Made by a program: the position numbers and the translations under genes. Source: Pseudomonas sp. HR96 (lineage in GTDB: Bacteria > Pseudomonadota > Gammaproteobacteria > Pseudomonadales > Pseudomonadaceae). Taken from it: DNA of 64,000 nucleotides. Where the stretch lies: contig NZ_CP139141.1 of assembly GCF_034059295.1 (NCBI RefSeq), forward strand, positions 3,393,001-3,457,000. Direction: 5' to 3'. How positions within the stretch are numbered: position 1 is the stretch's first letter; every line of letters begins with the position of its first letter. The notes below the pieces were generated by a model. That model ran no database searches. It was given only the letters and a program-made list of their open reading frames with translations, and was not told where the DNA came from. Below, piece after piece: positions 2,556 through 55,413 of the stretch.

Positions 2556-4784
2556 TCAGGACTGCGGCTTGAGAATCAGCACGCCGAGGGGAGGCAAGTT
2601 AAGGCTCAACGACAAGGGTTGGCCATGGCTGGGAACATGCTCGGTCTCCACCGCGCCGCCGTTGCCGAAGTTGGAGCCGGCATACAGGTCGGCGTCACTG
2701 TTGAGCACCTCGCTCCAGCGTTCGGCGAACGGCACGCCCACCCGGTAGTTTTCGCGCGGTACCGGGGTGAAGTTACCTACCACCAGCACCGGCTCGCCCT
2801 CGCGACTCCAGCGCAACCAGGCGAACACGCTGTTGGCGGCATCGTCACCAATCAGCCACTGGAAGCCTTGGGGTTGGCAATCCTGATCGTGCAACGCGGG
2901 CTCGCTGCGGTACAGGCGGTTGAGGTCGCCTACCAGCTTCTGGACACCCAAGTGCTCGGAATACTGGGTAAGGTACCAGTCCAGCTGGTGGTCATGGTTC
3001 CATTCGCGCCATTGGCCAAATTCACAGCCCATGAACAACAGCTTCTTGCCCGGGTGCGTCCACATGAACGTCAGGTAGGCGCGCAGGTTGGCAAACTTCT
3101 GCCAGCGATCACCGGGCATCTTGTCGATCAGCGAATGCTTGCCATGCACCACTTCATCGTGGGAGATCGGCAGTACGAAGCGCTCGGAAAACGCGTACAT
3201 CAAGCCGAAGCTCAGCTCGCTGTGATGGTGCGCGCGATGAATCGGGTCGTTCTGCATGTAGTGCAGCGTGTCATGCATCCAGCCCATGTTCCATTTGTAG
3301 TCGAACCCCAGGCCACCCTGCTGGGTTGGCTGGCTGACCCCCGGCCAGGCCGTGGACTCCTCGGCGATCACCAGGGCACCGGGTGCCTCGATGGCCACCA
3401 CGTCGTTGAGGTGACGGAGAAACTCGATGGCCTCGATATTCTCGCGACCGCCGTACTTGTTGGGGATCCACTCGCCGGCCTTGCGCGAATAGTCGCGGTA
3501 GAGCATCGACGCCACGGCGTCCACGCGCAGCCCATCGATATGGTAGTTCTTCAACCAGTGCACCGCCGAGGCAATCATGAAGCCATGCACCTCGGTGCGG
3601 CCCAGATTGTAGATCAGTGTGTCCCAATCCTGGTGGAAACCTTCCAGCGGGTTGTCGTACTCGTACAGGGCGGTACCGTCGAAACGGGCCAGGCCGTGAG
3701 TGTCGGTGGGAAAATGCGCCGGCACCCAGTCGAGGATGATGCCGATGCCGGCCTTGTGGCAGGCATTGACGAATTCGGCGAAGTCTTCCGGAGTGCCATA
3801 GCGCGCCGACGGAGCGAACTGCGACAGCGGTTGGTAGCCCCAGGAGCCGCCGAACGGGTGCTCCATGATCGGCATCAACTCGATGTGGGTAAAGCCGGTC
3901 TGCTGCACGTAGGGGATCAGCCGTTCGGCCAGCTCGTGCCAGTTATAGGAACGCACCACTTCGCCCGCCTCGTCCAACTCGCACATCCACGAGCCGGCAT
4001 GCAGCTCGTAGATGGACAGGGGGGCATGGACGCTGTGGCGCTCGGGGCGCTTGTCGAGCCACTCCTGGTCGTCCCAGTTGAACTGCAACGGCTTGGCCAC
4101 CCGCGAACCGGTTGCCGGCGGCAGTTCGGTCTGCAGCGCTACTGGGTCGGCCTTGAGCGGCAGAATGCCGCTGTGCGCCAGCACTTCGTACTTGTACGAC
4201 TCGCCAGGCTGCAGGCGCGGGATGAAAATCTCCCAGACCCCGCTGGGGTGACGAAGGCGCATCGGGTGGCGACGGCCATCCCAGACGTTGAAGTCACCGA
4301 CCACCGAGACGCGCCGGGCGTTCGGCGCCCAGACGGCGAACCGCACGCCCTCGACGCCATCGACCTGCACGAACTGCGCGCCCAGGGCATGGCCGAGATC
4401 GCGATGGTTGCCTTCGGCGAACAGATAGAGGTCCATCTCGCCGAGCAATTCACCATAGCTGTAGGGGTCTTCGCTGACCTGCTCACCGCCTGCCCACTGA
4501 ACCTTCAGCAGGTAGGGTTGGCGCTGGTCGAAGTGGCCGACGAAAAATCCCGGTGTGGTGCTGAGCTCCAGTTGACCCAGGGCTTCACCGGAGTCCCGGG
4601 CCAACACTTGGACACTCAACGCATTGGGCAGGTAGGCGCGAATATATTGCCCCTGCGCGCCATCGTGGTGCGGGCCGAGGATCGAAAACGGGTCGTGGTG
4701 CTCGGCGCGGATCAGCGCTTCGATGTCGGCTTGGCTCGGCAGCGCGCCGCCCTGGCCTGGTCCTTGTTCTTTTTGCGCACTCAT
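2556..4784 (-). CDS. glgB: 1,4-alpha-glucan branching enzyme GlgB
   Basis: 742 residues, the full GlgB length. It transfers alpha-1,4 oligoglucan segments to 6-OH positions, making alpha-1,6 branches. Order of domains: N1/CBM48 modules (about 20-230), a GH13 (beta/alpha)8 barrel (about 250-610) and a C-terminal all-beta domain. The nucleophile is D422 in [12 protein letters not shown] and the acid/base is E475 in [22 protein letters not shown] carries the third acidic residue. The start codon overlaps the treS stop by one base (TAATG), so it is translated with treS. It is the last step of the GlgE pathway: branched alpha-glucan made here is extended by GlgE from maltose 1-phosphate. Confidence 0.97.
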
Positions 4785-7700
4785 TACGACTCTCCCCTTG
4801 TGCTTAGCAGCCCGAACAAGCCATGCAAAGGCACGGCCAGCCAGCTCGGACGATTCTCGGCTTCGTAAGCTATTTCATAGGCAGCCTTTTCCAGGCTGAA
4901 CAATTCCAGCGCTGCGCGCTCGCCGTCGGCATGTTGCCAGGCGTGCGGCAAGCTGGCGGTGGCCAGACCATAGGCCTCGATGAAGGCCTGTCTGGCCTCT
5001 TTCAAATAGCGCTCGGCAACACGCTCACGGGCCTGCGCAGCCTGCTCCGAGACGTCGACGCTCTGCGCGTTGCGCACCGCCATGGCCGCGGCGTAGTCGA
5101 AGGAGCGCAGCACACCGCTGACATCCTTGTACGGGCTGTACATGCCGCGGCGCTCTTCCAGCGGCCGTGCCGGTTCGCCTTCGAAGTCGATCAGGTAGGC
5201 GTCGCCCTGCACCACCAGGATCTGCCCCAGGTGCAGGTCGCCGTGCACCCGCATGATCAGGCCGCCCACCGCTTGCTGGCACAGCTGCTCGACATGCGCG
5301 AGAAGGCCCTGGCGCTGGCCGAGCAGTTTATCCACCAGGGTGCGCGACTCTTCGTCCAGGTCAGGCTTGCGCTGCTCAAGCAGCTGCAAAGCGCGCTCGA
5401 CCTGAGTGGTGATGCTCTGCTGCCAGAGCTCGGCGTCCTGCTGGGCGCTGGGCCGCGAGCGAAACGCCGGGTCATCGGTCGGCGCCCCCAGCACCTGGTG
5501 CATTTCGCCCAGGCGCTGGCCCAGCAGGCCGGCGAAATCGGCCAGCTCGCCCAAGGCGTTGTAATGCTGTTGCTGCTCTGAACGGGCAGTGTCCATCTCG
5601 TCGCGGATGGCCCGATCAAGGTTGTTCTGGGTCCACTCCCAGGCATCACCCTGGTTGGCCAGGAAACCTTGGGCGATCATCAGCAGGTTCGGCGTGCCAT
5701 CAGCGCCCACCCGGCTCACCGAGCCCGACAGAGGCGAAATATTGGCGTAGCCGGCGTTGGTCAGGTAGGCACCCATCTCAAGCTCGGGGTGGATGCCGGG
5801 GTTGACCCGGCGAATCATCTTGAGAACCATGGCGCCACCGACCACCACCGAGCTGTTGGACTGCTCGGCGGCCAGGTAGCGGATCGGCGATTCGTCGTTC
5901 AGGCCAAGCCTGGCGAGCTGCGCGGTCGGTTCGAAACGGATCTCGCCGTCGCCGGTGGCCAGCTTCAGATTGCCCTGCACAGCCGCGACGACCGCGTGGA
6001 TGAACGTCTCGAGGACGAACGCGTCGGTGATCAGGCCAACCTGGCGACCGCGACGCACCCGTGACAACGCCAGCTGCTGCGGCAAGGCACTGCTGAAGTG
6101 CTCTTCACCGAGGAAGCCGAACGGAAACTGATAGCGGCTGACCGAGTTGTCGCCGCCAGTGACTTCGATCTCGCTGAACAGCACCGGGCTGGTCGGCTTG
6201 CCGAAACGCACGCCGTAAGCGATGCGCACCTGGGCAACCCCTGCATCCTTGCCGCCGAACCAGCGGCGCTTGGGCAGGTACTGCGGCAAGGCGTTGTCTT
6301 CCAGGGCCGTACGGGACGGCTGGTCGAGCAACTCTTCCATGCGCTTTTTCAGCACAAGGGTGGTGAAGTCCGGCAGACTTTGCGCCGGTTCGACGTGCCA
6401 ACTGGGCATTTGCGCCTCCGGGGCGAGCAAGAACCAATAGAACCCATAAGGTGGCAGGGTGAGCAGGAAGTTCAACTGCCCGATCGGCGGGAACGCGCTG
6501 CCGCCGAGCATCTCCACTGGCACCATACCCGCGTACTGCGACAATTCCAGCTCGGCCGCCTGGGCCGCGCGCGAGACGTTGGCCACGCACAGGATGATTT
6601 CCGACTTGCCATCCGGCGCCGTGTACTCGCGTATGTAGGCCAGGATGCGGCGGTTGGTCGGGGTCAGCATCTTCAGCGTTCCGCGGCCGAACGCCTTTTG
6701 CTGCTTGCGCACACCGAGCATGCGCCGGTGCCAGTTAAGCAACGAGTGGGCGTCGCTGGCCTGGGTCTCGACATTGACCGACAGGTACCCGTAAAGCGGG
6801 TCCTGAATCGGCGGCAGGACCAGGCTGGCCGGGTCGGCGCGGGAGAAACCGCCATTGCGGTCGATGGACCATTGCATCGGCGTGCGCACGCCATCGCGGT
6901 CGCCCAGGTAGATGTTGTCGCCCATGCCGATCTCGTCGCCATAGTAGATGGTCGGCGTGCCGGGCATGGACAGCAGCAGACTGTTGAGCAGTTCGATGCG
7001 CCGACGATCACGCTCGAGCAGCGGCGCCAGGCGCCGGCGGATGCCCAGGTTGATCCGCGCGCGGCGATCGGCGGCGTAGTAGTTCCACAGATAGTCGCGC
7101 TCGCGATCGGTGACCATTTCCAGGGTCAGCTCGTCGTGGTTGCGCAAAAATATCGCCCATTGGCAGTTGGCCGGAATCTCCGGGGTCTGGCGCAGAATAT
7201 CGGTGATCGGAAAGCGGTCTTCCTGAGCCACGGCCATGTACATGCGCGGCATCAACGGGAAATGGAAAGCCATGTGGCATTCGTCGCCGTCCTTGCCATG
7301 CACGTCGCCGAAGTACTGCTGAGTGTCCTCCGGCCATTGGTTGGCCTCTGCCAGCAGCATGCGGTCAGGATAATTGGCGTCGATTTCGGCGCGAATCTGT
7401 TTGAGCACCTGGTGAGTCTCGGGCAGGTTCTCGTTGTTGGTGCCGTCGCGCTCGATCAGGTAGGGGATGGCATCCAGCCGCAGGCCGTCGATGCCCATGT
7501 CCAGCCAGTAGCGCATCACCCCGAGCACCGCTTTCATGACCTGCGGGTTATCGAAGTTGAGATCCGGCTGGTGCGAATAGAATCGATGCCAGAAGTACTG
7601 GCCGGCCACCGGGTCCCAGGTCCAGTTGGACTTCTCGGTGTCGAGAAAGATGATCCGCGTGCCGTCGTACTTGCTGTCGGTGTCCGACCACACGTAGAAG

Positions 7701-8107
7701 TCACGAGCCCGCGAGCCAGGCTTGGCCCGGCGCGCGCGCTGGAACCAGGGGTGCTGGTCGGAAGTGTGGTTGATGACCAGTTCGGTGATCACCCGCAGGT
7801 TGCGCGCATGGGCCTCGGCGATGAAGCGACGCACATCGGCCATGGTCCCGTAGTCGCTGTGCACCGCTTTGTATTCGGAGATGTCGTAGCCGTCGTCGCG
7901 CCGTGGCGAGGGGTAGAACGGCAACAGCCAGATGGTGTTGACGCCCAGCTCGGCGATGTAGTCGAGCTTGCCGATCAGGCCCGGAAAGTCACCGATGCCG
8001 TCATTGTTGGAGTCGGCATAGGACTTCACGTGAACCTGATAGATGACCGCATCCTTGTACCAGAGCGGGTCCTTGATGAATTCGGCGGACCGGGGTTTCT
8101 TCGCCAT
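4784..8107 (-). CDS. treS: trehalose synthase / maltokinase fusion TreS-Mak
   Basis: 1107 residues, twice the size of a lone TreS, because a maltokinase is fused at the C terminus. The N-terminal GH13 domain (1 to about 545) interconverts trehalose and maltose; D212 ([10 protein letters not shown]), E254 ([11 protein letters not shown]) and D325 ([10 protein letters not shown]) are the catalytic triad. From about residue 580 the Pep2/Mak kinase domain begins ([12 protein letters not shown] cap). It carries HGDLHLGQ at 955-962 as catalytic loop and DFEGEP as metal site, and makes maltose 1-phosphate with ATP. It lies between glgE (46-bp gap upstream) and glgB (1-base overlap), so one polypeptide supplies the GlgE substrate from trehalose. 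Confidence 0.97.
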
Positions 8108-8153
8108 TGTTATTCCCTGTCAATCATGAGCGACGGTGGCATTTGCGCAGCGG

Positions 8154-10178
8154 TTACTCCGGCTTGCTGAATCGCCAGATCCCGAACGGCGTGCGCCAGG
8201 GCTCGATGCGCATCCATTGGGTCTTGCCGTACCAGGTCCAGCGATGGCCGGTCATCAGGTCTTCGCCATAGGAGGCCGCATTGTCGTCCAGCCCCAACTC
8301 CCACAACGGCAGTTCGAAGTTGGCTTCCTGGGCGTTGTGCGGATCGAGGCTGACGGCGACCAGAATGAAATTCTGGCGATCGGCCGTGCGTTTGCCGAAG
8401 TACAGGATGTTGTCGTTGTAGGCCTGGTAGAACTCGACCCCCAGATGCGTCTGCAATGCCGGGTTCTGCCGGCGGATGCGGTTGAGCTGAGCGATTTCGG
8501 CAATGATGTTGCCCGCCTGGGTGTAGTCGCGCGGGCGGATCTCGTACTTCTCCGAGTCCAGGTACTCTTCCTTGCCCGGGATGGGCGCGGATTCACACAG
8601 TTCGAAACCGGAGTACATGCCCCACAGCCCCGAACCCATGGTCGCCAGCGCAGCGCGGATGAGGAAACCCGCGCGCCCGGAGTCGTGCAGGAAGAAGGGG
8701 TTGATGTCCGGAGTGTTGACGAAGAAGTTGGGCCGGTAGCACCACGACAGCGGCGGCGAGTTCAGCTCGCCAAGGTAGGTCGCCAACTCGGTTTTGCTGT
8801 TGCGCCAGGTGAAATAGGTGTAGCTCTGGGAATAACCGACCTTGCCCAGCCGCGCCATCATCGCCGGCTTGGTGAAGGCCTCGGCGAGAAACATCACCGA
8901 CGGATCCTTGCTGCGCACGTCCTCGATCAGCCACTGCCAGAACGGCAAGGGCTTGGTGTGCGGGTTGTCGACCCGGAAAACCTTCACGCCCTCCTCGACC
9001 CAGCCGAGGATCACGTCGCGCAGCTCCAGCCACAGGCCGGGCACGGCGTCGGCGGCATAGAAATCGACGTTGACGATGTCCTGGTATTTTTTCGGCGGGT
9101 TTTCCGCGTAGCGGATGGTGCCGTCCGGGCGCCATGAGAACCAGCCAGGATGCTGCTGCAGCCAAGGGTGGTCCTGAGAACACTGGATGGCGAAATCCAG
9201 GGCGATTTCCAGGCCATGCTCGGCGGCGGCGGCCACCAGCCGACGGAAGTCTTCGCGGCTGCCTAGCTGCGGGTGGATGGCGTCATGGCCACCGTCGGCG
9301 CTCCCGATGGCATAGGGGCTGCCGACATCATCCGGGCCGGCGGTTAGGGAATTGTTGGGGCCCTTGCGGTGGGCGCGACCGATGGGGTGGATGGGCGGGA
9401 AATACAGCACATCAAAACCCATGTCGCGGATCATCGGCAGGCGGTTATGCACGTCGTTGAAAGTGCCGTGGCGCGACTTGTCATCGGTGATCGAGCGTGG
9501 GAACAGCTCGTACCAACTGGCGAATTGCGCTAGCGAGCGCTCCACTTCGACGGGAAACTCGGCGCTTTTGCTGAGAAACGCGCGGTGATCGGCCGACGCC
9601 ATCAAGGTGGCGGTTTCACTGTGCAGCAAGAGTTCGACCTGAGCCTCGCTGTCGAGGCCGGCAAGCCGGTCATGGAGGGCCATCAGCGACGCCTTCAGCG
9701 CGTCATCGCTGCGCTCGGCACTGTTGAGAATATGCAGCCGGCCTTCTTCCAACTCCAGTTTGATGGGCACGGCGGCAGCGTATTTCTTGCCCAACTCGTA
9801 TTGGTAACTGGCGAACTGGTCGATCCAGGCTTCGATGGCGAACACGTGGCGGCCGACCGTATCAATGGTCAGCGACGCCTGCCAGCTGTCGTTGCCCAGG
9901 TCGCGCATGCCGACGCTGTGCCAGTCACTTGCATTGACTTCGCGCCAGCGCAGCACGACGGCCAGCTTGTCATGACCATCGGCGTAGACCTTGCTGTCCA
10001 CGGTCAGGGTCTGGCCAACCACCGCCTTGACCGCGAACAGGCCACCCTCGATCACAGGGGTGGTCGACTCGATCACGATGCGCGGCAGTAACAGCGCCTG
10101 CGAGAGGCTCAGGGGCTGCCCCTGGGTCGCCTGCTGATCGGCGTTCTGGCCGGCTTCGAAAGGTTGATCTGCAGTCAT
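8154..10178 (-). CDS. glgE: alpha-1,4-glucan:maltose-1-phosphate maltosyltransferase GlgE
   Basis: 674 residues from MTADQPFEAG. ATG 10178 is chosen because AAAGGAG sits 9 bases upstream; the longer reading would place that site inside the protein. GlgE (GH13_3) adds maltosyl units from maltose 1-phosphate to alpha-glucan. Visible: an N-terminal beta domain (IVIESTTPVIEGG, about 35-135), a barrel with nucleophile D404 (VFRVDNPHTK) and acid E433 (FLAEAFTKP), and NTPDINPF, which carries the transition-state Asp. It is first in the minus-strand operon glgE-treS-glgB. The operon is expected to respond to osmotic or desiccation stress, as known for pseudomonad trehalose genes. Confidence 0.96.
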   Translation of the reverse strand: MTADQPFEAGQNADQQATQGQPLSLSQALLLPRIVIESTTPVIEGGLFAVKAVVGQTLTVDSKVYADGHDKLAVVLRWREVNASDWHSVGMRDLGNDSWQASLTIDTVGRHVFAIEAWIDQFASYQYELGKKYAAAVPIKLELEEGRLHILNSAERSDDALKASLMALHDRLAGLDSEAQVELLLHSETATLMASADHRAFLSKSAEFPVEVERSLAQFASWYELFPRSITDDKSRHGTFNDVHNRLPMIRDMGFDVLYFPPIHPIGRAHRKGPNNSLTAGPDDVGSPYAIGSADGGHDAIHPQLGSREDFRRLVAAAAEHGLEIALDFAIQCSQDHPWLQQHPGWFSWRPDGTIRYAENPPKKYQDIVNVDFYAADAVPGLWLELRDVILGWVEEGVKVFRVDNPHTKPLPFWQWLIEDVRSKDPSVMFLAEAFTKPAMMARLGKVGYSQSYTYFTWRNSKTELATYLGELNSPPLSWCYRPNFFVNTPDINPFFLHDSGRAGFLIRAALATMGSGLWGMYSGFELCESAPIPGKEEYLDSEKYEIRPRDYTQAGNIIAEIAQLNRIRRQNPALQTHLGVEFYQAYNDNILYFGKRTADRQNFILVAVSLDPHNAQEANFELPLWELGLDDNAASYGEDLMTGHRWTWYGKTQWMRIEPWRTPFGIWRFSKPE

Positions 10179-10448
10179 CGAGCATTGCTCCTTTACGCCC
10201 CATGGACGCACATGTTCGGGTTCAGGTCGGTTGTACACCGGCCCGCCTGGCCTCGCGCGCAACTCGCGGAGAGCACTCGCGCAGAACAGTGGGGTTATTA
10301 CTGCTTATGTTCGAAGCCCGGGCCGAGGGGAAAGTTCAGATGGATTCGCGCGCCAGTGCCGTATCAGGCCATGGGGATCGAACGGCATTGACCGGGGTCA
10401 ACAGAATGTACGAATGCTCGCCCGACCGCCATCTTCGAGGACTGTGCC
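10179..10448. other. 270-bp divergent intergenic region, glgE / small protein
   Basis: No gene is supported here. On the minus strand it must hold the promoter of glgE-treS-glgB; on the plus strand it leads to the small ORF at 10449, preceded by GAGGA (10437-10441). A TTGAC-CGGG-GTCAA dyad (10388-10401) lies about 50 bases before that ORF and could be an operator or part of a -35 region. Confidence 0.6.
10310..10337 (-). promoter_or_regulatory. candidate AlgU (sigma-22) promoter for glgE-treS-glgB
   Basis: On the minus strand GAACTT (10337-10332) is followed after 17 bases by TCGAA (10314-10310), which fits the AlgU/RpoE-type pattern GAACTT-N16/17-TCnnA, although the -10 is imperfect. It points toward glgE, 132 bases upstream of its start. 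Trehalose genes in pseudomonads are known stress-regulon members, which motivates the reading; the match alone is weak. Confidence 0.3.
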
Positions 10449-16513: not shown

Positions 16514-17647
16514 ATGAAACCGTCCGACATTTTCCATACGGCCGCCGAGCATCACCGCCGCTACGAGCTGCTGGTCCAGTCGGTCATGGACTACGCCATC
16601 TACATGCTCGACCTGGATGGCCGGATCATCACCTGGAACGCCGGCGCCCAGCGCATCAAGGGCTACAGCACCGAGGACATCATCGGCCAGCACTTCTCGC
16701 GATTCTTCGGCGCCGATGATCAGGCCGACGGCAAGCCGCACCGCCTGCTCAGCCAGGCCTACGCCCAAGGTCGCTGCCAGGATGAAGGCTGGCGGGTACG
16801 CAAGGACGGCAGCCGCTTCTGGGCCCGGATCGCCCTGGACCTGATCCGCGACGACAGCGGCAACCCGATCGGCTTCGCCAAGGTCACCCGCGATATCACC
16901 GAGCGCCATGAGGCCGAGCGTCAGCTCGACCAGGTACGGGCCGAGCTGTTCCAGGCACAGAAGCTCGAGGCCCTCGGGCAGCTGACCGGTGGCCTGGCCC
17001 ACGACTTCAACAACCTGCTGACGATCATCCTCAGCTCGGCGAAGATGGCGCAAAAAAGCGCCAACCCCGAGCGGGTGGCGGCCATGCTGGCGAATATCGT
17101 CGACGCCGGTGAACGCGGCAGCCGCCTGACCCGCCAGTTGCTGACGTTTGCCCGGCACAAGGAGGCCGGCAGCCAGCGACTGGACGTTGGCGAAATGCTC
17201 GCCACCACCCAAGCGCTGCTGGCCCAGGCGTTGCCCAAGCGCATCACACTGCAGGTGCAGGCCCCACCGGACCTGTGGCAGGTAGACGCCGACCCCAGCC
17301 AGCTGGAAATGGTCCTGCTCAATCTGACGCTCAATGCCCGCGACGCCATCAGCGCCGAGGGCTGCATCCATGTGCACGCCAGCAACCAGCATCTGGACGA
17401 AGGCACCCATGGCCTGCTGGGGGATTTCGTCTGCATCACCGTCGCCGACACCGGCGCCGGCATCGACGAGTACACCCGCCAGCGGATCTTCGAGCCGTTC
17501 TTCACGACCAAGGCGTTCGGCCAGGGTACCGGGCTGGGGCTCAGCCAGGCCTACGGCTTCGCACGCCACGTCAATGGTGACCTGCGAGTCGACAGCGTGG
17601 TGGGGGAAGGTACGCAGATGCACCTGTACATTCCGGCGGCCTTATAG
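16514..17647 (+). CDS. PAS-domain sensor histidine kinase
   Basis: 377 residues, cytosolic (no TM helix). A PAS domain (about 15-135: [39 protein letters not shown]) is followed by a dimerisation/phosphoacceptor domain with H163 in [11 protein letters not shown] and an HATPase domain ([11 protein letters not shown] box, [10 protein letters not shown]1, [14 protein letters not shown]2). There is no receiver domain, unlike many HDFNN-type hybrid kinases, so it needs a separate partner; the lone receiver at 19252 is the nearest candidate. It is the first gene of the KaiC/stressosome block and lies 119 bp before kaiC. Confidence 0.92.
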
Positions 17648-17766
17648 CGGATAGCGCAAAAAGTGCCATGCGACGATTCTGAAAAGCGGGTTAGAATTGA
17701 CCGATCAGATCGACAGCCCGTTTTCGCGCCCCATTCCTGGCTCGGAACGAGGCAAGCACCGTACTC

Positions 17767-19230
17767 ATGACAAAAGGCAGCCCGATATTGGAACAGCTAA
17801 AACGCCTTGCAACCGGAATCGTCGGCTTCGACGCTCTATTGAAAGGTGGCCTGGTGGCCGGTGCTTCATACATCGTCCAGGGCCGACCCGGCTCGGGCAA
17901 GACCATCCTCGCCAACCAGCTGGGCTTTTACCACGTGCGCGAAGGTGGCCGTGTGCTGGTGGCGACATTGCTCTCCGAATCCCACGAGCGGCTGTTCCAG
18001 TACCTGTCCACCCTGTCCTTCTTCGACCCCTCGCGCATCGGCAACGAGATCCAGTTCGTCAGCGCCTTCGACACCCTTGAGAATGAAGGGCTGGACGAAG
18101 TGGTCAAGCTGCTGCGCCGCGAAATCGTCCGCCAGAAAGCCACGGTATTGATCGTCGACGGCTTGCTCAACGCCCGTTCCAAGGCCGAATCGCAGATCGA
18201 CACCAAGAAGTTCATCGCCGAACTGCAAGGCCACGCCGCCTTCGCCGGCTGCACCGTGCTGTTCCTGACCAGCTCGCGGCTGGACGACGGCAGCCCGGAA
18301 CACACCATGGTCGATGGCGTCATCGAGCTGGGCGAAGAGCTGTTCGGTACCCGCTCGGTGCGCCGCATCCAGCTGCGCAAGACCCGCGGTAGCGGCGCCC
18401 TCTCCGGCCTGCACGAATGCGAGATCACCGACGACGGCCTGGTCATCTACCCACGCCTGGAAAGCCTGTACAGCCGCCCGTCCCATGTCGAAACCACCGA
18501 CATGAAGCCGCTGCCCAGCGGCGTTCCGGCCCTGGACGGGCTGATCGGCGGCGGCCTGCCGCGCGCCTCGGTGACCCTGGCCATGGGCCCCTCCGGGGTC
18601 GGCAAGACCACCCTGGGCATTCGTTTTCTCAGCGTCGCCACGCCTGAGGAGCCGGGGCTGCACTTCGGCTTCTACGAAACCCCAGACCGTCTGCGCGCCA
18701 AAGCCAACGCCATCGGCGTCGACTTCGCCAGCATGGAAGAAACCGGTGCACTGCACATGGCCTGGCAGCCGACCACCGAAGGCCTGCTCGACGGCCTCGG
18801 TGCGCGCCTGCTGAGGCTGGTGGACCAACACGGCATCAAGCGGGTGAGCATCGACAGCTTCGGCGGCATGACCCGCATGGCCAACAACCCGGCCCGCCTG
18901 ACCCCGTTCTTCAGCGCCCTGATGGGCGAACTGCGCGCCCGCGGCGTACTGGTGTTCGCCTCCTGGGAGATCCGCGGCCTGTTCGGCCCCGAGCTGGACG
19001 CGCCCAGCCCGGACCTGTCGAGCATCGTCGACAACATCCTGGTGCTGCGCTTCGTGGAGTATGAGTCTGAACTTAAACGCCTGTTATCCATCCTTAAGAT
19101 AAGAGACAGCGTTTACGATCCCGCTTTGCTGGAGCTGGTCGTCAACGACCATGGGGTCGATTTGAGGAAGGCTTTCAAAAATGCAGAAGCCGTTATGTCG
19201 GGCAGCGCATCGACGATATCGAAGCCGTGA
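17767..19230 (+). CDS. KaiC-like double-RecA ATPase/autokinase
   Basis: 487 residues with two tandem KaiC domains. CI has Walker A GRPGSGKT (39-46); CII has GPSGVGKT (274-281). KaiC of cyanobacteria is a hexameric ATPase that autophosphorylates adjacent Ser/Thr near the CII C terminus. Here the aligned stretch PDLSSIVDNILVLRFVE has S418-S419 at that position, and YETPDRL carries a Glu near the CII active site. KaiA and KaiB are absent from the window, so circadian oscillation is not implied. ATG 19231 directly follows the stop, so the receiver gene is coupled. It probably acts as an ATP-driven or phospho-switch scaffold in the stress pathway downstream. Confidence 0.92.
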   Translation: MTKGSPILEQLKRLATGIVGFDALLKGGLVAGASYIVQGRPGSGKTILANQLGFYHVREGGRVLVATLLSESHERLFQYLSTLSFFDPSRIGNEIQFVSAFDTLENEGLDEVVKLLRREIVRQKATVLIVDGLLNARSKAESQIDTKKFIAELQGHAAFAGCTVLFLTSSRLDDGSPEHTMVDGVIELGEELFGTRSVRRIQLRKTRGSGALSGLHECEITDDGLVIYPRLESLYSRPSHVETTDMKPLPSGVPALDGLIGGGLPRASVTLAMGPSGVGKTTLGIRFLSVATPEEPGLHFGFYETPDRLRAKANAIGVDFASMEETGALHMAWQPTTEGLLDGLGARLLRLVDQHGIKRVSIDSFGGMTRMANNPARLTPFFSALMGELRARGVLVFASWEIRGLFGPELDAPSPDLSSIVDNILVLRFVEYESELKRLLSILKIRDSVYDPALLELVVNDHGVDLRKAFKNAEAVMSGSASTISKP

Positions 19231-19251
19231 ATGCGACGGAGTCGAGCTGAC

Positions 19252-19620
19252 ATGGCTACTATCCTGATCGTCGACGACGAGTACGTGATCGCCGATATCC
19301 TGGGCTATGCCCTCGAGGATGAAGGCTACACGGTCGTCAAGGCCGGCAATGGCCGCAAGGGCCTGGAAATCCTCGAGCGCGATCGGCCGACGCTGGTAAT
19401 TACCGACTTCATGATGCCGCTGATGGATGGCCTGGAGTTCGCCAGGGCCATCCGTGAGCGGCCGGCGTTCGAGCAGACTCCAATCGTGCTCATGTCCGGC
19501 GCCCAAGCCAATCTTGGCCGCGACAATCCCCATATATTCGCTGCGGTTTTCGACAAGCCCTTCGACATCGACAAGGTGATTGCCAAGGTCAGTGAACTGC
19601 TCGGCGAGGAGACACATTAG
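19252..19620 (+). CDS. single-domain response regulator (CheY-like)
   Basis: 122 residues from MATILIVDDEYV; an alternative ATG at 19231, right after the kaiC stop, would add seven residues (MRRSRAD). It is a complete receiver: acidic pair D8-D9, phosphoacceptor D52 (LVITDFMMPLMDG), switch Ser in VLMSGA, and the conserved Lys-Pro in FDKPFD. It lacks an output domain, so it acts by protein contact. Close coupling to KaiC and position downstream of a receiverless kinase suggest phosphotransfer from H163 of that kinase, or from the hybrid kinases at the end of the block. Confidence 0.92.
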   Translation: MATILIVDDEYVIADILGYALEDEGYTVVKAGNGRKGLEILERDRPTLVITDFMMPLMDGLEFARAIRERPAFEQTPIVLMSGAQANLGRDNPHIFAAVFDKPFDIDKVIAKVSELLGEETH

Positions 19621-19824
19621 GCGCTTTTTTCTCGGCACCGCCGCACCATTTCCTTTCCCTGCAATCTGATGATCGCCATGGCCCGAACCCCACGGTTTGC
19701 GAGCCAGGGGCGGCATTTTTCCCGTAATGTGCAATGATCTTTTGTTTGGTAAGGCACTTTGCTAGTGTGCGTTGCCTTGAATGCTCCACCGTACCCCTTT
19801 GAAACCCAGCAACAGGAATTTGCC
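19621..19824 (+). promoter_or_regulatory. 204-bp leader of the rsbRST operon
   Basis: The gap between the receiver gene and rsbR holds no gene. It begins with a T6 run right after the stop (no clear stem before it) and becomes AT-richer from about 19715, so the rsbR-to-kinase operon probably has its own promoter here. AGGAA stands 7 bases before the rsbR ATG. I could not identify a convincing -35/-10 pair. Confidence 0.4.
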
Positions 19825-20664
19825 ATGTCCTCCGCCGTCCTTGCCGAACTGTTGAAGCAGCACGAAGCTACCCTTATCGATCACTGGATCGCTGCCCAAC
19901 GCAGCGCCGGCATCCGCTCGGACCTGATCGACGAACGCACCGTGCAGCAGAACTCGCGCGACCTGTTCAAGGCACTCAGCCTGGCCATTGCCGAAGGCAA
20001 CGACGATTTCGACGCGCCGGCCTGGCGCCCGGTCAAAGCTTTCATCGAACGCCTGTCCCAGGCCCAGAGCCGTCAGGGCTTCAGTCCCAGCGAGACCGCG
20101 ACCTTCGTCTTCTCGCTCAAGGAAGCGCTGTTCCAGACCATCCAGGAACACAGCAGCAACCCGGTGCAGGTCACCCTCTCGGCCAGCCGCCTGCTGGACA
20201 AGATCGGCCTGTTCAGCATGCAGTGCTTCATGACCGGCCGCGAAGCGGTGATCCGCGAGCAACAGGAAAGCATGCTCGAGCTCTCCACCCCGGTGGTCCA
20301 GCTGTGGAAAGGCGTGCTGGCCATCCCGCTGATCGGCGCGCTGGATTCCAACCGCACCCAGATCGTCATGGAAGCGCTGCTGCAGAAGATCGTCGACACC
20401 GAGTCGGACATCGCCATCATCGACATCACCGGCGTGCCCACCGTGGACACCATGGTTGCCCAGCACCTGCTCAAGACCATCACCGCCGCCAAGCTGATGG
20501 GCGCCAAGTGCATCATCAGCGGCATCCGCCCGCAGATCGCCGCGACCATCGTGCACCTGGGTGTGGAACTGGGCGACGTGGTCACCAAGGCCTCGCTGGC
20601 CGACGCCTTCCAGCTCGCCCTCAAAGAGCTGAATGTGCGCCTGGTCACCCCGCAGACCCGCTAA
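19825..20664 (+). CDS. rsbR: RsbR-type stressosome sensor/scaffold (STAS)
   Basis: 279 residues from MSSAVLAELLKQHEATL. The N-terminal half (about 1-150) is an RsbRD-like all-helical sensor (HWIAAQRSAGIR, SETATFVFSLKEALF) and the C-terminal half is a STAS domain. DITGVPTVDTMVAQHLL and GAKCIISGIRPQIAATIV closely match Bacillus RsbRA. T209 and T241 are the candidate residues for phosphorylation by RsbT. With RsbS it should form the large stressosome core that captures RsbT until stress. It heads a tight operon: rsbS follows 12 bases after the stop. Confidence 0.92.
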   Translation: MSSAVLAELLKQHEATLIDHWIAAQRSAGIRSDLIDERTVQQNSRDLFKALSLAIAEGNDDFDAPAWRPVKAFIERLSQAQSRQGFSPSETATFVFSLKEALFQTIQEHSSNPVQVTLSASRLLDKIGLFSMQCFMTGREAVIREQQESMLELSTPVVQLWKGVLAIPLIGALDSNRTQIVMEALLQKIVDTESDIAIIDITGVPTVDTMVAQHLLKTITAAKLMGAKCIISGIRPQIAATIVHLGVELGDVVTKASLADAFQLALKELNVRLVTPQTR

Positions 20665-20676
20665 GGAGGCCGAGCC

Positions 20677-21099
20677 ATGGTGGACAGAATCCCCGTCCTG
20701 AAAATGGGCAAGTACCTGTTGTTGACCATCCAGGTCGACATGCATGACCAACTGGCGTTGGACCTGCAGGAAGACCTGACCGAGCAGATCGTGCGCCATA
20801 ACGCCAAGGGCGTACTCATCGATATCTCCTCGCTGGAAATCGTCGACTCGTTCATCGGCCGCATGCTCTCGCATATTGCCAACGTGTCGCGCATTCTCGA
20901 CGCCAAGGTGATCGTCGTCGGCATGCAACCGGCAGTGGCCATCACCCTGGTCGAGCTCGGGCTTTCGCTGGAAGGCATCGCCACCGCGCTCAACGTGGAA
21001 AAAGGCATGCGCTGGCTGGAAAACAATGTAAACGACGACCTGGTTCAGGAGCTTGAGAGTGACGAAGACAGAGACGCTGCCGCTGAAGCAGGAAACTGA
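20677..21099 (+). CDS. rsbS: RsbS-type STAS protein
   Basis: 140 residues; AAGGAGG sits 7 bases before the ATG. A single STAS domain (VLKMGKYLLLTIQVDM, GVLIDISSLEIVDSFIGRML). S58 in EIVDSF is the counterpart of the Bacillus RsbS phosphoserine controlled by RsbT and RsbX. It is longer than Bacillus RsbS by a charged tail (ELESDEDRDAAAEAGN) which is also the region overlapping rsbT on the DNA. Expected role: stressosome core subunit that binds RsbT when unphosphorylated. Confidence 0.92.
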   Translation: MVDRIPVLKMGKYLLLTIQVDMHDQLALDLQEDLTEQIVRHNAKGVLIDISSLEIVDSFIGRMLSHIANVSRILDAKVIVVGMQPAVAITLVELGLSLEGIATALNVEKGMRWLENNVNDDLVQELESDEDRDAAAEAGN

Positions 21100-21457
21100 C
21101 ATCGTCGTCATTCGCCAGCGAGTGCGCAAGGCTGCCGAAGAAATACGACTGGGTCTGGTGTCGCAAACCAAGGTGGTCACCGCAGCCAGCGAAATCGCTC
21201 GCAACGGCCTGATCTACGGCGGCGGCGGCGAATGCGTGATCGAGATCACCCAGCGTGACGGGCGTACTGCCCTGCACTTGATCATCGCCGACAACGGCCC
21301 TGGCATCGACAACCTCGAGCGCGCCATGACCGATGGCTTCACCTCCGGCGGCGGCCTGGGCCTGGGCCTTTCCGGCGCCAAGCGGCTGGTGGACGATTTT
21401 GCAATCCAGACCGTGCCGGGCTCCGGCACAACGATTGAACTGTGGAAATGGCGATGA
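21059..21457 (+). CDS. rsbT: RsbT-type serine/threonine switch kinase
   Basis: 132 residues from GTG 21059; AGGAG (21047-21051) is 7 bases upstream, whereas the upstream TTG at 21053 is too close to that site. It is a GHKL ATPase: N box EIARNGLIYGGGG, G1 DNGPGID and G2 GGGLGLGLSGAKRLVDDF. RsbT phosphorylates RsbR and RsbS and, once released, binds an output partner (RsbU in Bacillus). It overlaps rsbS by 41 bases and the phosphatase gene by 4 bases, giving strong translational coupling and fixed stoichiometry. Confidence 0.92.
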   Translation: MTKTETLPLKQETDIVVIRQRVRKAAEEIRLGLVSQTKVVTAASEIARNGLIYGGGGECVIEITQRDGRTALHLIIADNGPGIDNLERAMTDGFTSGGGLGLGLSGAKRLVDDFAIQTVPGSGTTIELWKWR

Positions 21458-22452
21458 ACGAGCTACTTTTCGACATGAGCATCCCGGTGAGCGACAGCGC
21501 TCACGTCGACGCCGCGCGCCGCCAGATCGTGCGCGCGGCGGCCGAGCTCAACAATGACGACACTCTGCTCGGCAAACTCACCGTGGTGGTGCAGGAAGCG
21601 GCGCGCAACCTGGTCAACCATGCCGGCAGCGGTGAATTGCTGTATTGCCAGGACAGCCAGGCGTTGCGCCTGCTCACGGTCGACAGCGGCCCGGGCATGG
21701 CCAACGTCGCCCAGTGCCTGACCGACAGCTACTCCACCACCGGCACCATGGGCGCGGGCCTGGGTGCCATGCAGCGCATGTCCGACCTGTTCGACGTGTT
21801 CTCGCAGCCGGGCCAGGGTACGGTGCTCTACACCCAGTTCGACCTGCCGCACGCGGTCGCCAGCCTCGATCCGGGTTTCAGCGTCGGCGCTGTCTGCACG
21901 CCCTACCCTGGCGAGGAGATCTGCGGTGACGCCTGGGCCATGCGCGGCAACCGGGTCATGATCGCCGACGGCCTGGGCCACGGCCACGCGGCCAGCGTTG
22001 CCAGTCAGAAGGCCCGCCAGGTGTTTCTCGACCACGACCCGGCGCTGACCATCGAGCAGGTCATGGAGCAGATGCACCGCGCGTTGATGCCCACTCGGGG
22101 CGGCGCGGTGTCGATCGCCGAAATCAATGTCGAGCAACGTCAGCTGCGCTTTTGCGGCATGGGCAACGTCGCCGGCATCCTGGTCAGCGACAAGCAGCGC
22201 AGCCTGGTCTCCAGCAATGGCACGGTCGGCTACCGCATGGGCCGCATCCACGGCTTCAGCTACCCCTGGGAGCCGGGCAATGTCCTGCTGCTGGCGTCCG
22301 ACGGCATCGGCACCAAATTGAACCTCGGGGCCTATCCCGGACTCTATGGGCGACACCCTGCGGTGATTGCCGGGCTGGTACATCGAGATTTCAAACGGCA
22401 CAACGACGACGCCACTGTGGTGGTGGTCAAGTACGACACGCCGCGTCACTAA
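21454..22452 (+). CDS. RsbT-like ATPase / SpoIIE-type phosphatase fusion (RsbX-like)
   Basis: 332 residues from ATG 21454, which overlaps the rsbT stop as ATGA (GTG 21442 and ATG 21448 are alternatives). Residues about 10-125 are an RsbT-like GHKL domain (VVQEAARNLVNHA, VDSGPGMANV, GTMGAGLGAMQRMSDLF). Residues about 140-330 are a PP2C/SpoIIE phosphatase (GEEICGDAW, MIADGLGHGHAAS, LLASDGIGTKLNL, DDATVVVV). Bacillus RsbX is only the phosphatase part and resets RsbR/RsbS by dephosphorylation. Here the same chain carries a kinase-like domain, so it could combine or switch between opposing activities. That combination is seen; its activity is inference. Confidence 0.88.
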   Translation: MNELLFDMSIPVSDSAHVDAARRQIVRAAAELNNDDTLLGKLTVVVQEAARNLVNHAGSGELLYCQDSQALRLLTVDSGPGMANVAQCLTDSYSTTGTMGAGLGAMQRMSDLFDVFSQPGQGTVLYTQFDLPHAVASLDPGFSVGAVCTPYPGEEICGDAWAMRGNRVMIADGLGHGHAASVASQKARQVFLDHDPALTIEQVMEQMHRALMPTRGGAVSIAEINVEQRQLRFCGMGNVAGILVSDKQRSLVSSNGTVGYRMGRIHGFSYPWEPGNVLLLASDGIGTKLNLGAYPGLYGRHPAVIAGLVHRDFKRHNDDATVVVVKYDTPRH

Positions 22453-22519
22453 GCATCCATCTTGAGCAAAACCACCGTGCCTGAGCCTATTTCGAGCAAA
22501 TCCCTGTGAGCTACCTGTC

Positions 22520-24277
22520 GTGAGCAACTACCGGCGCATCACCACAGTGAGCATTACCCACGAGGTCGATGTGGTTGCCTGTCGCCAGAGCGCCAAGCAG
22601 ATTGCCGCCTGGCTGGGCCTGTCGACCCTGGAGCAGATTCGCCTGGCCACGTCGGTATCCGAGCTGGCCCGCAATGTCTACCAGTATGTCGGCTCGGGCA
22701 CCTTCCACTTCGACCTGCGCAAGGACCCCCACGGCCTGGTCAACGCCATCGGCTTCGAGGCGGTGGACGAAGGCAGTGGCATTGCCGATATCGAGCGCAT
22801 CCTCGATGGCAGCTACGTCTCGCCTACGGGCATGGGCGTAGGCCTGCGCGGTGCGCAGCGGCTGATGGACGAGTTCGACATCCAGACCTCTGCCGCCGGC
22901 ACGCGCATCCGCGCGCTGAAGAGCGTATACCCGCCGCGGCCGTTCCCCAGCGAGAAACGCATTCAGGAGATCCGCCGCCAGCTGCAGACCGAGGGCGCGT
23001 CGGACCCCTACGTCGAGCTGCAGGTGCGCGGTTCGGAGCTGCTGCTGACAAGTTCCGAACTGCGCAGCAAGCAGCAGGAACTGGAAGCCACCAATCTTGA
23101 GCTGGAGAACACCAACAAGGGTGTGGTGGCGCTGTATTCGGAGCTGGAGAAGGCCTCGCAGGAGCTGCAGGAGGCCAGCGAGTCCAAGAGCCGCTTCTTC
23201 TCCAACATGACCCACGAATTTCGCACGCCGATCAACATCATCGAGAACATCTCCAAGCTGCTGCTCAAAGGTGCCGACGGCGAGTTGAACCCTGAGCAGT
23301 ACAAGCAGGTGCGCTTCATCAGTTCGGCGGCCAGCGAGCTGTCCGATCTGGTCAACGAGCTGCTGGACCTGGCAGAAGCAGAGTCCGGGCGCATGGAAAT
23401 CGTCCCGGCGCGCTTCAGCCTGGTCGAGTTCATGGAACAGCTGCGCCAGTTCACCGGGGCCTTGTCGATGCGCTACCCGACCCTGGACTGGCAGGTCACG
23501 CCGATCCTGGTCGATGTGATCCTGGACACCGACCGCAACCGGCTGTTCCAGATCATGCGCAACCTGATCAGCAACGCCTTCAAGTACACCCCGCAAGGGG
23601 CGATCAGCGTCCGCTGCTTCCTGCCTGACTCCGACACCGTCGAGTTCATGGTCGAGGACAGCGGTGTGGGCATCGGCGCCGAGGACCAGGCGCGGATCTT
23701 CGAGGAGTTCGCCCGGGTACGCATTCCAGGCCTGGCCCATGTCCAGGGCAATGGCCTTGGCCTGCCCCTGGCGGTGCGCCTGGCCAGCCTGCTGCGTGGC
23801 GACATCGAACTGACCAGCGAAGTCGGCAAAGGCAGCCGCTTCACCGCGCGCATCGCCCGCGAGTTCGTCGAGCGCGAGGCCGATCTGCAGAATCTCGACC
23901 TGACCGGCATCACCGTGCTGATCATCGATGACAACGAAGCGGACCGCTACCTGGTGCGCCATCTGCTCGAACCCTACCATGCGGTGGTGATCGAGTCGGA
24001 GAACGCCAGCGCCAGCATCGACAAGATGCATGCGGTGCGCCCCGACATCATCCTGCTCGACCTTGACCTGCCCGACATCTACGGCGCCGACCTGCTCGAA
24101 AGCATGGATTGGAGCCTGCACTCGCGGGTACTGGTCAATACTGCCAAACTGCTCGACGACACCGAGCGCGATCGCCTGCTGAGCCAAAGTCAGGGCGTGC
24201 TGATCAAAACCCAACCCGACTATGCCGAGGCGTTGCTGCAACAAGTGCAGCGACTGGCGGGGAGCTACCGCCCATGA
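22520..24277 (+). CDS. hybrid histidine kinase with N-terminal RsbT-like domain
   Basis: 585 residues from GTG 22520 (weak ribosome site). Residues 1 to about 135 are a third RsbT-like GHKL domain (SVSELARNVYQYVG, DEGSGIADIERIL, GMGVGLRGAQRLMDEFDI). A long coiled coil follows (about 170-225, SELRSKQQELEATNLELENT), then HisKA with H232 (NMTHEFRTPINI) and a second HATPase (NLISNAFKYTPQG, VEDSGVGIG, GNGLGLPLAV). The receiver has D514 (LLDLDLPD). There are no TM helices. The RsbT-like head may bind the stressosome and so feed stress status into a phosphorelay. Its stop overlaps the next kinase start as ATGA. Confidence 0.9.
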   Translation: MSNYRRITTVSITHEVDVVACRQSAKQIAAWLGLSTLEQIRLATSVSELARNVYQYVGSGTFHFDLRKDPHGLVNAIGFEAVDEGSGIADIERILDGSYVSPTGMGVGLRGAQRLMDEFDIQTSAAGTRIRALKSVYPPRPFPSEKRIQEIRRQLQTEGASDPYVELQVRGSELLLTSSELRSKQQELEATNLELENTNKGVVALYSELEKASQELQEASESKSRFFSNMTHEFRTPINIIENISKLLLKGADGELNPEQYKQVRFISSAASELSDLVNELLDLAEAESGRMEIVPARFSLVEFMEQLRQFTGALSMRYPTLDWQVTPILVDVILDTDRNRLFQIMRNLISNAFKYTPQGAISVRCFLPDSDTVEFMVEDSGVGIGAEDQARIFEEFARVRIPGLAHVQGNGLGLPLAVRLASLLRGDIELTSEVGKGSRFTARIAREFVEREADLQNLDLTGITVLIIDDNEADRYLVRHLLEPYHAVVIESENASASIDKMHAVRPDIILLDLDLPDIYGADLLESMDWSLHSRVLVNTAKLLDDTERDRLLSQSQGVLIKTQPDYAEALLQQVQRLAGSYRP

Positions 24278-25383
24278 AGACCCGGCGTATTCTGATCATC
24301 GACGACATGGATGCCAACCGCTACGTGTTGCGCAAGATCCTCGAAGCAGAAAGCGGCTTCGAAGTGCTCGAGGCCGGCAACGGCGAAGCAGGCCTGGCGC
24401 AACTGGATGCCAGCATCGACCTGGTCATCCTCGATATCAACCTGCCGGACATGACCGGCTTCGAGCTGATCCAGCAGGCCGAGGCCAAGCTGGGCCATGG
24501 CAAGTTGCCGGCGGTGATCAACATCTCGGCCACCTTTGTCACGGGCAAGGACAAGGCCATGGGCTTGAACAAGGGCGCGCGGGCCTACCTTACGCACCCG
24601 ATCAACCCCGATGAGGTGCTGGCGACCATCTCCAGCCTGATGAAATCCAACCATCGTTTCGAGCGCATGGAAAAGCAGCGCCAGGTGGCCCTGGCGCGCA
24701 GCGAGAACCTGCGCAGCGAGAAAATCATGCTCGAACGGTTCATGCGCTCGTTCAGCCATGACCTGCGCTCGCCGCTGGCGGCGGCGGTGATGGTCACCGG
24801 GTTGATGTCCAAGAACCCGGCGCGGCGCACCGAGGAAATGCTCAAGATCCTTGCCGACAACCTCAAGCGTATCGACCAGATGGTCACCAACGTGCTCGAC
24901 ATTTCCCACGTCAGCATGGGCGGCGGCATCAAGTTGATCGGCGAGCCGCTGGCACTGGCGGGCATGCTCGGCGAAGCCGTGGAAAACCTGCGCCTGCAGG
25001 TGACCCAGCAGATCCTTGTCGATGATCAACTGGGCGATGCCCGGGTATTCTGGGACAAACACGCCTTTCTGCGCATCTTCGACAACCTGGTGATCAATGC
25101 CAGCAAGCATGGCGCGGCCGACTCATCGATCCGCATCAGCCAGGCGGTCGAGGAAGACATGGCGGTGATCTGTGTCAGCAACCACGGCAACTTTCCCGAG
25201 GAAGTCCTGACCAACCTGGCCACGCCCTATTTCATTTCCACCAAGAGCGAAACCAAGGGTTGGGGCCTGGGCCTGCCAATCGTCAAGGCGCTCTGCGAGA
25301 GCTTCGGCGGGCGGGTGTCGTTCCTCAACGATGAAGGGCTGGCCAAGGTCGAGCTGCGCCTGCCTTTGTCGGTGGCGGTGTAG
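24274..25383 (+). CDS. receiver-histidine kinase (REC-HisKA-HATPase)
   Basis: 369 residues from MKTRRILIIDDMDANRYVLRK; GGGGAG precedes it and the start overlaps the previous stop. The N-terminal receiver has D54 (LVILDINLPD) and K-like switch end THPINPDE. HisKA has H162 (SFSHDLRSPLAAA), and the HATPase shows NLVINASKHG, SNHGNFPEE and GWGLGLPIVKALCESFGG. Receiver-first order means its kinase is gated by phosphorylation from another kinase, most simply the 22520 hybrid. It is the last gene of the block; no DNA-binding or cyclic-nucleotide output follows, so the final target is not local. It ends 1 bp from the convergent LysR gene. Confidence 0.92.
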   Translation: MKTRRILIIDDMDANRYVLRKILEAESGFEVLEAGNGEAGLAQLDASIDLVILDINLPDMTGFELIQQAEAKLGHGKLPAVINISATFVTGKDKAMGLNKGARAYLTHPINPDEVLATISSLMKSNHRFERMEKQRQVALARSENLRSEKIMLERFMRSFSHDLRSPLAAAVMVTGLMSKNPARRTEEMLKILADNLKRIDQMVTNVLDISHVSMGGGIKLIGEPLALAGMLGEAVENLRLQVTQQILVDDQLGDARVFWDKHAFLRIFDNLVINASKHGAADSSIRISQAVEEDMAVICVSNHGNFPEEVLTNLATPYFISTKSETKGWGLGLPIVKALCESFGGRVSFLNDEGLAKVELRLPLSVAV

Positions 25384-47745: not shown

Positions 47746-48243
47746 ATGCTGCTCGATGCCCTGGTGTTTCTCGTCACTCTGACCCTCATGGAGGGTTTCG
47801 CCTATGTCGCGCACAAGTACGTGATGCACGGCTGGGGCTGGGGCTGGCATCGCTCGCACCATGAGCCGCGCGGAGGTTGGTTCGAAAAGAACGATCTGTA
47901 CGCGCTGGTGTTCGCCGGGGTGGCGATCCTGTTGATCTGGCTGGGCACGCGCGGCGCCCATCCACTGGAGTGGATAGGCGCCGGCATGACCGGTTACGGG
48001 CTGCTGTATTTCCTCGTGCATGATGGCCTGGTGCACAAGCGCTGGCCTTTGCGTTATGTGCCGCGCAGTGGTTACCTCAAGCGCCTGTATCAGGCCCACC
48101 GCATGCACCACGCGGTCGACGGCAAGGAGCGCTGCGTGTCCTTCGGCTTCCTGTATGCGCCTTCGGCCGAGAGGCTCAGGCGCGAGTTGCGCGAGCTGCA
48201 TGGCGGGCCGCTGCGGCGCGAGGATCAGAGCCCGCGGTCTTGA
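47746..48243 (+). CDS. crtZ: beta-carotene 3-hydroxylase CrtZ
   Basis: 165 residues from [12 protein letters not shown]; an open frame runs upstream for 160 codons but is antisense to the chemoreceptor. It is a non-heme diiron membrane hydroxylase making zeaxanthin from beta-carotene. The histidine boxes are all present: HKYVMH (H23, H28), HRSHH (H35, H38, H39), HDGLVHKRW and HRMHH. Four hydrophobic segments. It lies at the end of the cluster facing crtB, with which it overlaps by 19 bases at the 3' ends. Confidence 0.94.
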
Positions 48244-54199: not shown

Positions 54200-54394
54200 G
54201 GCGGCTCCTTCAATCCCGCTTGCGGCAGGGAGTCTTTTGCCGATTTGGCTGTCAGTAATACGTGGCACTGTTGTACGCGACAGCGGAAACTGCATAAGTC
54301 ATGTATAAGAAAATGACGTGCGTATGGCAACTGCCAGCGTCAGGCGTTCCCTGAACTCGTGCAAAAGACTGGACTGATGACTGCGGGGGAGCAC
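54200..54394. promoter_or_regulatory. divergent fni-crtX-Y-I-B / crtE promoter region
   Basis: 195 bases that must drive both halves of the pathway. The centre (54250-54330) is AT-richer and contains GTCAT-N10-ATGAC (54298-54302 and 54313-54317), a weak dyad, and CATAAG/TATAAG near-repeats at 54293-54309. I cannot assign -35/-10 boxes or a known light-regulator site with confidence; no CarH/LitR gene is in the window. Confidence 0.4.
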
Positions 54395-55327: not shown

Positions 55328-55349
55328 GGGGGCGTGTGCATGGCGAAAT

Positions 55350-55403
55350 GTTCAATATGGCGACCATCGGCCGCCCGGGCGGCCGGTGGTGGCCATATTG
55401 AAC
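55350..55403. terminator. 54-nt near-perfect palindrome between convergent crtE and kinase
   Basis: 27-base arms (55350-55376 and 55377-55403) around CCCGGG with only two mismatches; the outer 12 bases are GTTCAATATGGC / GCCATATTGAAC. It starts 23 bases after the crtE stop and ends 11 bases before the kinase stop on the other strand, so it can terminate both. No long T-run is present on either side. Confidence 0.7.
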
Positions 55404-55413
55404 CTATCGCCCC

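Follow-up and report, generated by a model that had tools for sequence, protein, structure and literature searches.

Stressosome modules of the RSTX type are described in parts of PMC9237108 and PMC10014275 as having phosphatase, cyclic di-GMP (c-di-GMP) or phosphorelay outputs, which some reach via RsbU_N heads and the majority without such a head. Modules feeding HisKA/REC phosphorelays are among those described, and the signalling of most modules lacking an RsbU_N target is stated to be an open question (sections of PMC9237108). In the rsbRSTX-D1-D2 genes of Vibrio vulnificus, deletion of either module gave similar phenotypes (passages of PMC9237108 and PMC10014275). Environmental Pseudomonas species, for their part, carry KaiC homologues with a reported role in stress (Terrettaz et al. 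2023, as cited in passages of PMC11372060 and PMC11832031). Here we analyse a locus where genes of both kinds stand together: nine plus-strand open reading frames (ORFs) at 16514-25383 of a 64,000-nucleotide stretch of Pseudomonas sp. HR96 (contig NZ_CP139141.1, positions 3,393,001 to 3,457,000; hereafter the window), namely hkA, kaiC, rec, rsbR, rsbS, rsbT, rsbX-like, hkB and hkC. With moderate confidence, we read this block as two independently conserved operons, hkA-kaiC-rec and rsbR-S-T-X-hkB-hkC, that have become juxtaposed in one narrow Pseudomonas lineage, the second of them encoding a stressosome with histidine-kinase output.

Like the V. vulnificus system, the second module is an RSTX set followed directly by two-component genes, without a sigma-factor cascade (parts of PMC9237108 and PMC10014275). 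Unlike its counterpart, whose RsbR head is a globin, it has an RsbR with an RsbRD_N head; an additional ATPase domain is attached to its RsbX-like phosphatase and an RsbT-like domain to its first kinase, and Pfam finds no c-di-GMP domain among the nine proteins of the block. The RSTX modules of 'Dogia' and Ruegeria share the kinase and receiver output, but for these RsbU_N heads or none are described (sections of PMC9237108), whereas the head of the window kinase is RsbT-like. Section 10 of PMC9237108 does not mention an RsbT-like head on a kinase; we do not claim it to be unpublished, as most subscription papers were unsearchable. RsbX-type phosphatases appear as single-domain proteins in PMC9237108.

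Domains of the nine proteins were assigned by Pfam with a reporting limit of E<=0.001. The stressosome module begins with rsbR (19825..20664), a co-antagonist gene of RsbRD_N and STAS domains whose product matches the solved RsbR proteins of Vibrio and Listeria, with S175 and T209 in the places of their two phosphorylated residues. The STAS antagonist gene rsbS (20677..21099) encodes a protein that aligns with the solved Listeria RsbS at E 2.4e-30; its S58 occupies the position of the Listeria serine that is alanine in chain 9o4r. Directly after rsbS comes rsbT (21059..21457), for a switch kinase of the HATPase_c / HATPase_c_2 type, and directly after rsbT an RsbX-type gene (21442..22452) in which an RsbT/RsbW-type ATPase domain (HATPase_c_2) is fused to a SpoIIE/PP2C phosphatase domain (SpoIIE, E 2.4e-11). 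The module ends with hkB (22520..24277), which joins an RsbT-like ATPase domain (HATPase_c_2) to HisKA (H232), HATPase and a receiver, and hkC (24274..25383), which has a receiver, HisKA (H162) and HATPase. In a midpoint-rooted domain tree, read by its topology, the N-terminal domain of HkB falls as the sister group of RsbT, apart from a group formed by the ATPase domain of the RsbX-like protein. The RsbT-like kinase head recurs in other genera (loci L238-L240, L242 and L243).

The first module comprises hkA (16514..17647), a PAS-HisKA-HATPase histidine kinase gene with H163; kaiC (17767..19230), for an ATPase with two KaiC domains; and rec (19252..19620), a lone receiver whose D59 is counted in the 129-residue ORF that begins at 19231. 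The starts of rec (19252), rsbR (19825), rsbT (21059) and hkC (24274) probably lie inside the listed ORFs, judging from the translations and from Pseudomonas sp. dw_358. The gaps measure 119 bases between hkA and kaiC, 21 between kaiC and rec and 204 between rec and rsbR (19621..19824), the last being the largest inside the block; from rsbR through hkC, neighbouring genes either overlap or leave 12-67 bases between them. The spacing falls into two groups, and each module may be transcribed as a unit.

A first-pass annotation of this DNA had named the nine genes, placed them here on one strand and picked out H163, H232 and H162 as phosphoacceptor histidines, all of which the ORFs, Pfam and the positions of these residues bear out. 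It had also held that the block lacks a local output, and indeed the nine proteins have no match (E<=0.001) to RsbU_N, a sigma factor or GGDEF, nor to HPt or an output regulator. HisKA and HATPase occur together in the products of hkA, hkB and hkC, and receivers in those of hkB, hkC and rec.

From these assignments a mechanism can be proposed for the stressosome module. A shell of RsbR and RsbS would sequester RsbT and, through its RsbT-like N-terminal domain, HkB as well; because that domain is sister to RsbT, we infer that HkB docks on RsbR:RsbS as RsbT does and that the two are released together. A signal received at RsbRD_N would lead RsbT to phosphorylate RsbS at S58 and RsbR at S175 and T209. 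Phosphorylation of the shell would then release RsbT and free HkB to autophosphorylate on H232, whereupon phosphate could pass via the receivers of HkB and HkC to a distantly encoded target. Resetting the shell would fall to the RsbX-like phosphatase, which its ATPase domain may dock there. If confirmed, the RsbT-headed histidine kinase would constitute a testable route from stressosome to phosphorelay that involves no RsbU, sigma factor or c-di-GMP.

That the two modules are kept separately is seen from either side. On the KaiC side, 162 relatives were confirmed in the species collection, and the best 80 of the 162 were analysed, 67 of the 80 loci spanning at least 9 kb upstream and at least 9.5 kb downstream. 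A rec gene lies 3' of kaiC in all 80 loci, and hkA (at least 50% identity) directly 5' of it in 54; rsb genes are absent from 79 of the 80. The single locus with rsbR, rsbS and rsbT beside kaiC belongs to Pseudomonas sp. dw_358 (L069). In the two-operon reading, hkA-kaiC-rec encodes a KaiC-type ATPase that probably acts together with the PAS-domain histidine kinase and the lone receiver.

The window KaiC shares with the KaiC of the cyanobacterial KaiABC clock its two KaiC domains, both Walker A motifs intact, and, in an alignment to Protein Data Bank (PDB) entries, a serine pair, S418/S419, at the place of the pair that we take to be the phosphorylation sites of cyanobacterial KaiC. In an alignment whose only outside comparison was the second KaiC of this genome, S418 is kept in 80/80 relatives and S419 in 75/80. 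Unlike in the clock protein, the EE pair of CII reads YE; the same tyrosine, in place of what is presumably the catalytic glutamate, is found in 79 of 80 relatives, and the second glutamate in all 80. Scores fall far below the KaiC equivalog cut-offs (187.4 of 408 bits and 136.8 of 546.25 bits), and the genome has no match to KaiB (E<=0.001; controls including S. elongatus matched; KaiA was not searched). On account of the missing KaiB match and of these scores, we set aside the idea of a circadian device.

Two side observations concern other KaiC genes. Pseudomonas sp. dw_358 (G057; L069, L074 and L075) has four KaiC matches: one of 91% beside rsbRST, two of the same family at 78-80% without rsb genes, and one at 31%. 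In the HR96 genome, directly downstream of the second KaiC gene, kaiC2 (L001:712-2211, minus strand), and in its orientation lies an ORF (731-3, truncated at the locus edge) that reads by eye as receiver-like plus PAS sensor, so that kaiC2, like kaiC, may have a sensor kinase as its partner.

On the stressosome side, RsbS (E<=1e-40) is present in 153/398 genomes of the genus, 11 of which we call type A (83-100% identity) and 142 type B (63-70% among the matches listed). Seven more type A genomes, at 81-94%, come from outside this sample (G057, G065, G069, G084, G090, G516 and G805), bringing the total to 18. The six-gene order rsbR-S-T-X-hkB-hkC occurs without kaiC in 11/11 of the wider type A loci (L154, L155, L191-L197, L238 and L239; the sequence of L193 stops some 2.6 kb 5' of rsbR), and five further type A loci, covered 1.5 kb either side of rsbS, contain neither kaiC nor rec. 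In type B, as seen at L158, hkB/hkC are replaced by a short stand-alone kinase and a hybrid kinase with a receiver at either end, and at a cut of E<=1e-6 the ATPase domain alone is reported for the phosphatase gene.

Adjacency of the two modules is correspondingly rare. We found kaiC beside rsbRST in two genomes, the present one (G000) and that of its close relative dw_358, that is, in 2/18 type A genomes. KaiC of the window family (E<=1e-100) occurs in 156/398 genomes of the genus, 94 of them with rsbS too, and distances were compared in 85 of these 94, the nine whose position was unlisted being left out. Only in HR96 were the genes less than 50 kb apart on one contig. Where both lay on the same contig (32/85), the distance was smallest here, at 2.9 kb, followed by 52 kb, and reached 4.1 Mb at most; in the remaining 53/85 they lay on separate contigs, where a contig break could in principle conceal an adjacency. 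In a sample of the phylum, RsbS (E<=1e-15) was found in 24/398 genomes, 18 of them outside the genus; no KaiC match lay near rsbS in these 18 loci (14 covering about 9 kb to either side, the other 4 less because of contig ends), and KaiC (E<=1e-10) was present anywhere in the genome in 9 of the 18 and in the other 9 was not. Among these 18, one gammaproteobacterium of another family (G667, contig 10, 116-134 kb; L256 and L244) has two KaiC genes (41% and 28%) some 11-18 kb from rsbS, the closest such pair found outside Pseudomonas.

The boundary between the modules also bears on their independence. An extended -10-like sequence, TGCTAGTGT, starts at 19760, 65 bases 5' of the rsbR ATG. The pattern TASTGT occurs within 110 bases 5' of rsbR in 13/18 type A loci including the window, in 11 cases as TGNTASTGT, as against a mean of 0.8 and a maximum of 4 in mononucleotide shuffles; CTAGTGT was spotted first (8/18 loci) and the pattern was widened to TASTGT afterwards, which makes the count of 13, taken over mutually related loci, post hoc. 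The window shares this promoter-like element with KaiC-free type A loci. A scan of the window boundary for the sigma-70 consensus called no promoter, and shuffled sequences fold as well as the RNA of the boundary does (z 0.64).

Several observations weigh against two operons that merely adjoin. All nine genes are kept in both genomes that have the adjacency, at 74-94% identity, and the 8.7 kb upstream of the block in dw_358 contain no match (at least 50% identity) to any window flank protein, the downstream flank being cut by a contig end; since the nine genes persist despite the unmatched upstream flank, they may have been retained as one unit. The TASTGT element is missing upstream of rsbR in dw_358, so that read-through from kaiC-rec is possible there, and no terminator was called in the boundary of the window. 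In a KaiC-free type A locus (L194:11059-12405), receiver-like (30%) and kinase-like (36%) matches lie on the same strand just 5' of rsbR. A kinase-receiver pair beside rsb genes is thus not unique to the window, and such pairs may have arisen more than once next to type A stressosomes.

Co-occurrence across the genus points the same way. With cut-offs fixed at 1e-40 for rsbS and 1e-100 for both kaiC and kaiC2, the latter being the other KaiC family in HR96, encoded away from the block and used as a specificity control, 94 of 398 genomes have both rsbS and kaiC, 59 rsbS only, 62 kaiC only and 183 neither (odds ratio 4.7). These counts include as present the kaiC hits of G341, G352, G181, G290 and one copy in G296, each with one in-frame stop; in G341 and G352, which are type A, the stop could reflect decay of kaiC with the stressosome kept, or a hit that runs past the gene end. 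An rpoB tree was built, as a single-gene tree, from a random 119 genomes plus HR96, of which every third was dropped to leave 80, and three with missing or split rpoB were removed to leave 77. Tests of dependent against independent trait evolution are liberal. On this tree the dependent model was preferred with likelihood ratios (LRs) of 19.4 for kaiC, 14.7 for kaiC2 and 21.3 for either KaiC (p 0.0006, 0.005 and 0.0003; two optimiser starts each). Simulation of one trait with the other fixed gave p values of 0.013-0.02, 0.001-0.005 and 0.0002-0.0005, respectively. As the co-occurrence is robust on the rpoB tree, the presence of one module may have some bearing on that of the other. The first-pass annotation had proposed a neighbourhood comparison and named rare adjacency together with absent co-occurrence as the outcome that would speak against its integrated block; the rarity was indeed found, but the two genes do co-occur, both in the 398 genomes and on the 77-genome tree.

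Lifestyle alone offers one account of this co-occurrence, and we give it about an even chance: regulator-rich environmental Pseudomonas would keep both systems, and their adjacency would be accidental, which is compatible with two independent operons. It accords with the association of rsbS with two distinct KaiC families, kaiC2 being present in 221/398 genomes and having an odds ratio of 3.1 with rsbS. Genomes with neither KaiC (17 of the 77) are also smaller, averaging 4.9 Mb compared with 6.2 Mb for the rest. Speaking against this account, in logistic models of rsbS presence the coefficient of genome size is not positive when both KaiCs (-0.7) or the either-KaiC variable (-0.41) are included.

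A second possibility, likewise compatible with the two-operon reading, is that the systems are encoded apart and cooperate throughout the genus, KaiC of either family and the stressosome feeding a shared phosphorelay or stress programme, so that genomes with one would tend to retain the other. We hold it only tentatively. At least one of the two KaiC families is present in 150/153 genomes with rsbS and in 155/245 without it; among the 77 genomes the corresponding figures are 35/35 and 25/42, although the 'either KaiC' variable was defined post hoc, after the data had been seen. Within the sample, kaiC is present in every one of the 11 type A genomes and kaiC2 in one. The two KaiC families are negatively associated across the 398 genomes (odds ratio 0.53), the rsbS-kaiC association stratified by kaiC2 has a Mantel-Haenszel odds ratio of 8.1, and the LRs and simulated p values favour the link of rsbS with KaiC, whereas the kaiC-kaiC2 pair has no positive link in the tree simulation (p 0.69-0.88). 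A role of Pseudomonas KaiC in stress resistance and biofilm has been reported (passages of PMC11372060 and PMC11832031). Yet kaiC2 is about as strongly associated with rsbS as kaiC is (3.1 compared with 4.7 in the 398 genomes, and 7.9 compared with 3.0 as raw odds ratios in the 77), so that the association is not specific to the neighbouring gene. The tree, moreover, is of one gene and has no control with an unrelated accessory gene, the genome-size coefficient is positive (0.49) when kaiC alone is in the model, and half of the 18 rsbS genomes outside Pseudomonas have no KaiC match. We regard such a functional link of KaiC with the stressosome in Pseudomonas as possible and testable, at less than even odds; adjacency alone does not show it. 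Should it be confirmed, the scarcity of stressosome genomes without either KaiC (3/153) would hint at a KaiC role in the same response. In the open-licence literature, passages of one paper that names both KaiC and the stressosome do so incidentally, and an earlier notice of the association may exist; a paper that names KaiC and RsbT brings in the latter where it compares the structures of KaiA and RsbU.

A stronger form of this idea, which we consider doubtful, makes the Pseudomonas stressosome dependent on an ATPase of the KaiC family. Together with the PAS kinase and the receiver, and in most cases encoded at a distance, KaiC would set the state of the very phosphorelay that the stressosome triggers via the RsbT-headed kinase, and the present lineage would have joined the two halves.

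Quite improbable, in our estimate, is the proposal that all nine genes form one device in which a stress signal is stored jointly in the phosphorylation of KaiC and of RsbR/S. The recurrence of all nine genes in two species whose upstream flanks do not match, the dw_358 boundary without a promoter-like element and the uncalled terminator would suit it; the two adjacencies among 18 type A genomes (five of the 18 covered 1.5 kb around rsbS), the 79 KaiC loci without rsb genes and the window's own promoter-like element before rsbR do not. Because each module is widespread without the other and adjacency is rare, the block is not a conserved device, and the integrated KaiC-stressosome block of the first-pass annotation gives way to two modules kept separately, found adjacent in this genome and dw_358, with all 18 non-genus rsbS loci free of KaiC. 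A conserved nine-gene operon is rejected, as neither module needs the other and adjacency was met in 1/80 KaiC loci and in 1/85 genomes with both genes placed. The kaiC-rsbRST adjacency itself is rare and bound to a lineage.

Elsewhere in the window, two other gene groups were noted. On the minus strand at 2559-10262 lie three consecutive glycogen/alpha-glucan genes, of GlgB, alpha-amylase/maltogenic-amylase and GlgE type. Carotenoid-type genes lie within 48228-57432, with a squalene/phytoene synthase at 48228-49199, an amine-oxidase-family gene at 49199-50713 and a polyprenyl synthetase at 54359-55327; they are adjoined by a PAS-HATPase-receiver hybrid kinase gene (55417-57432).

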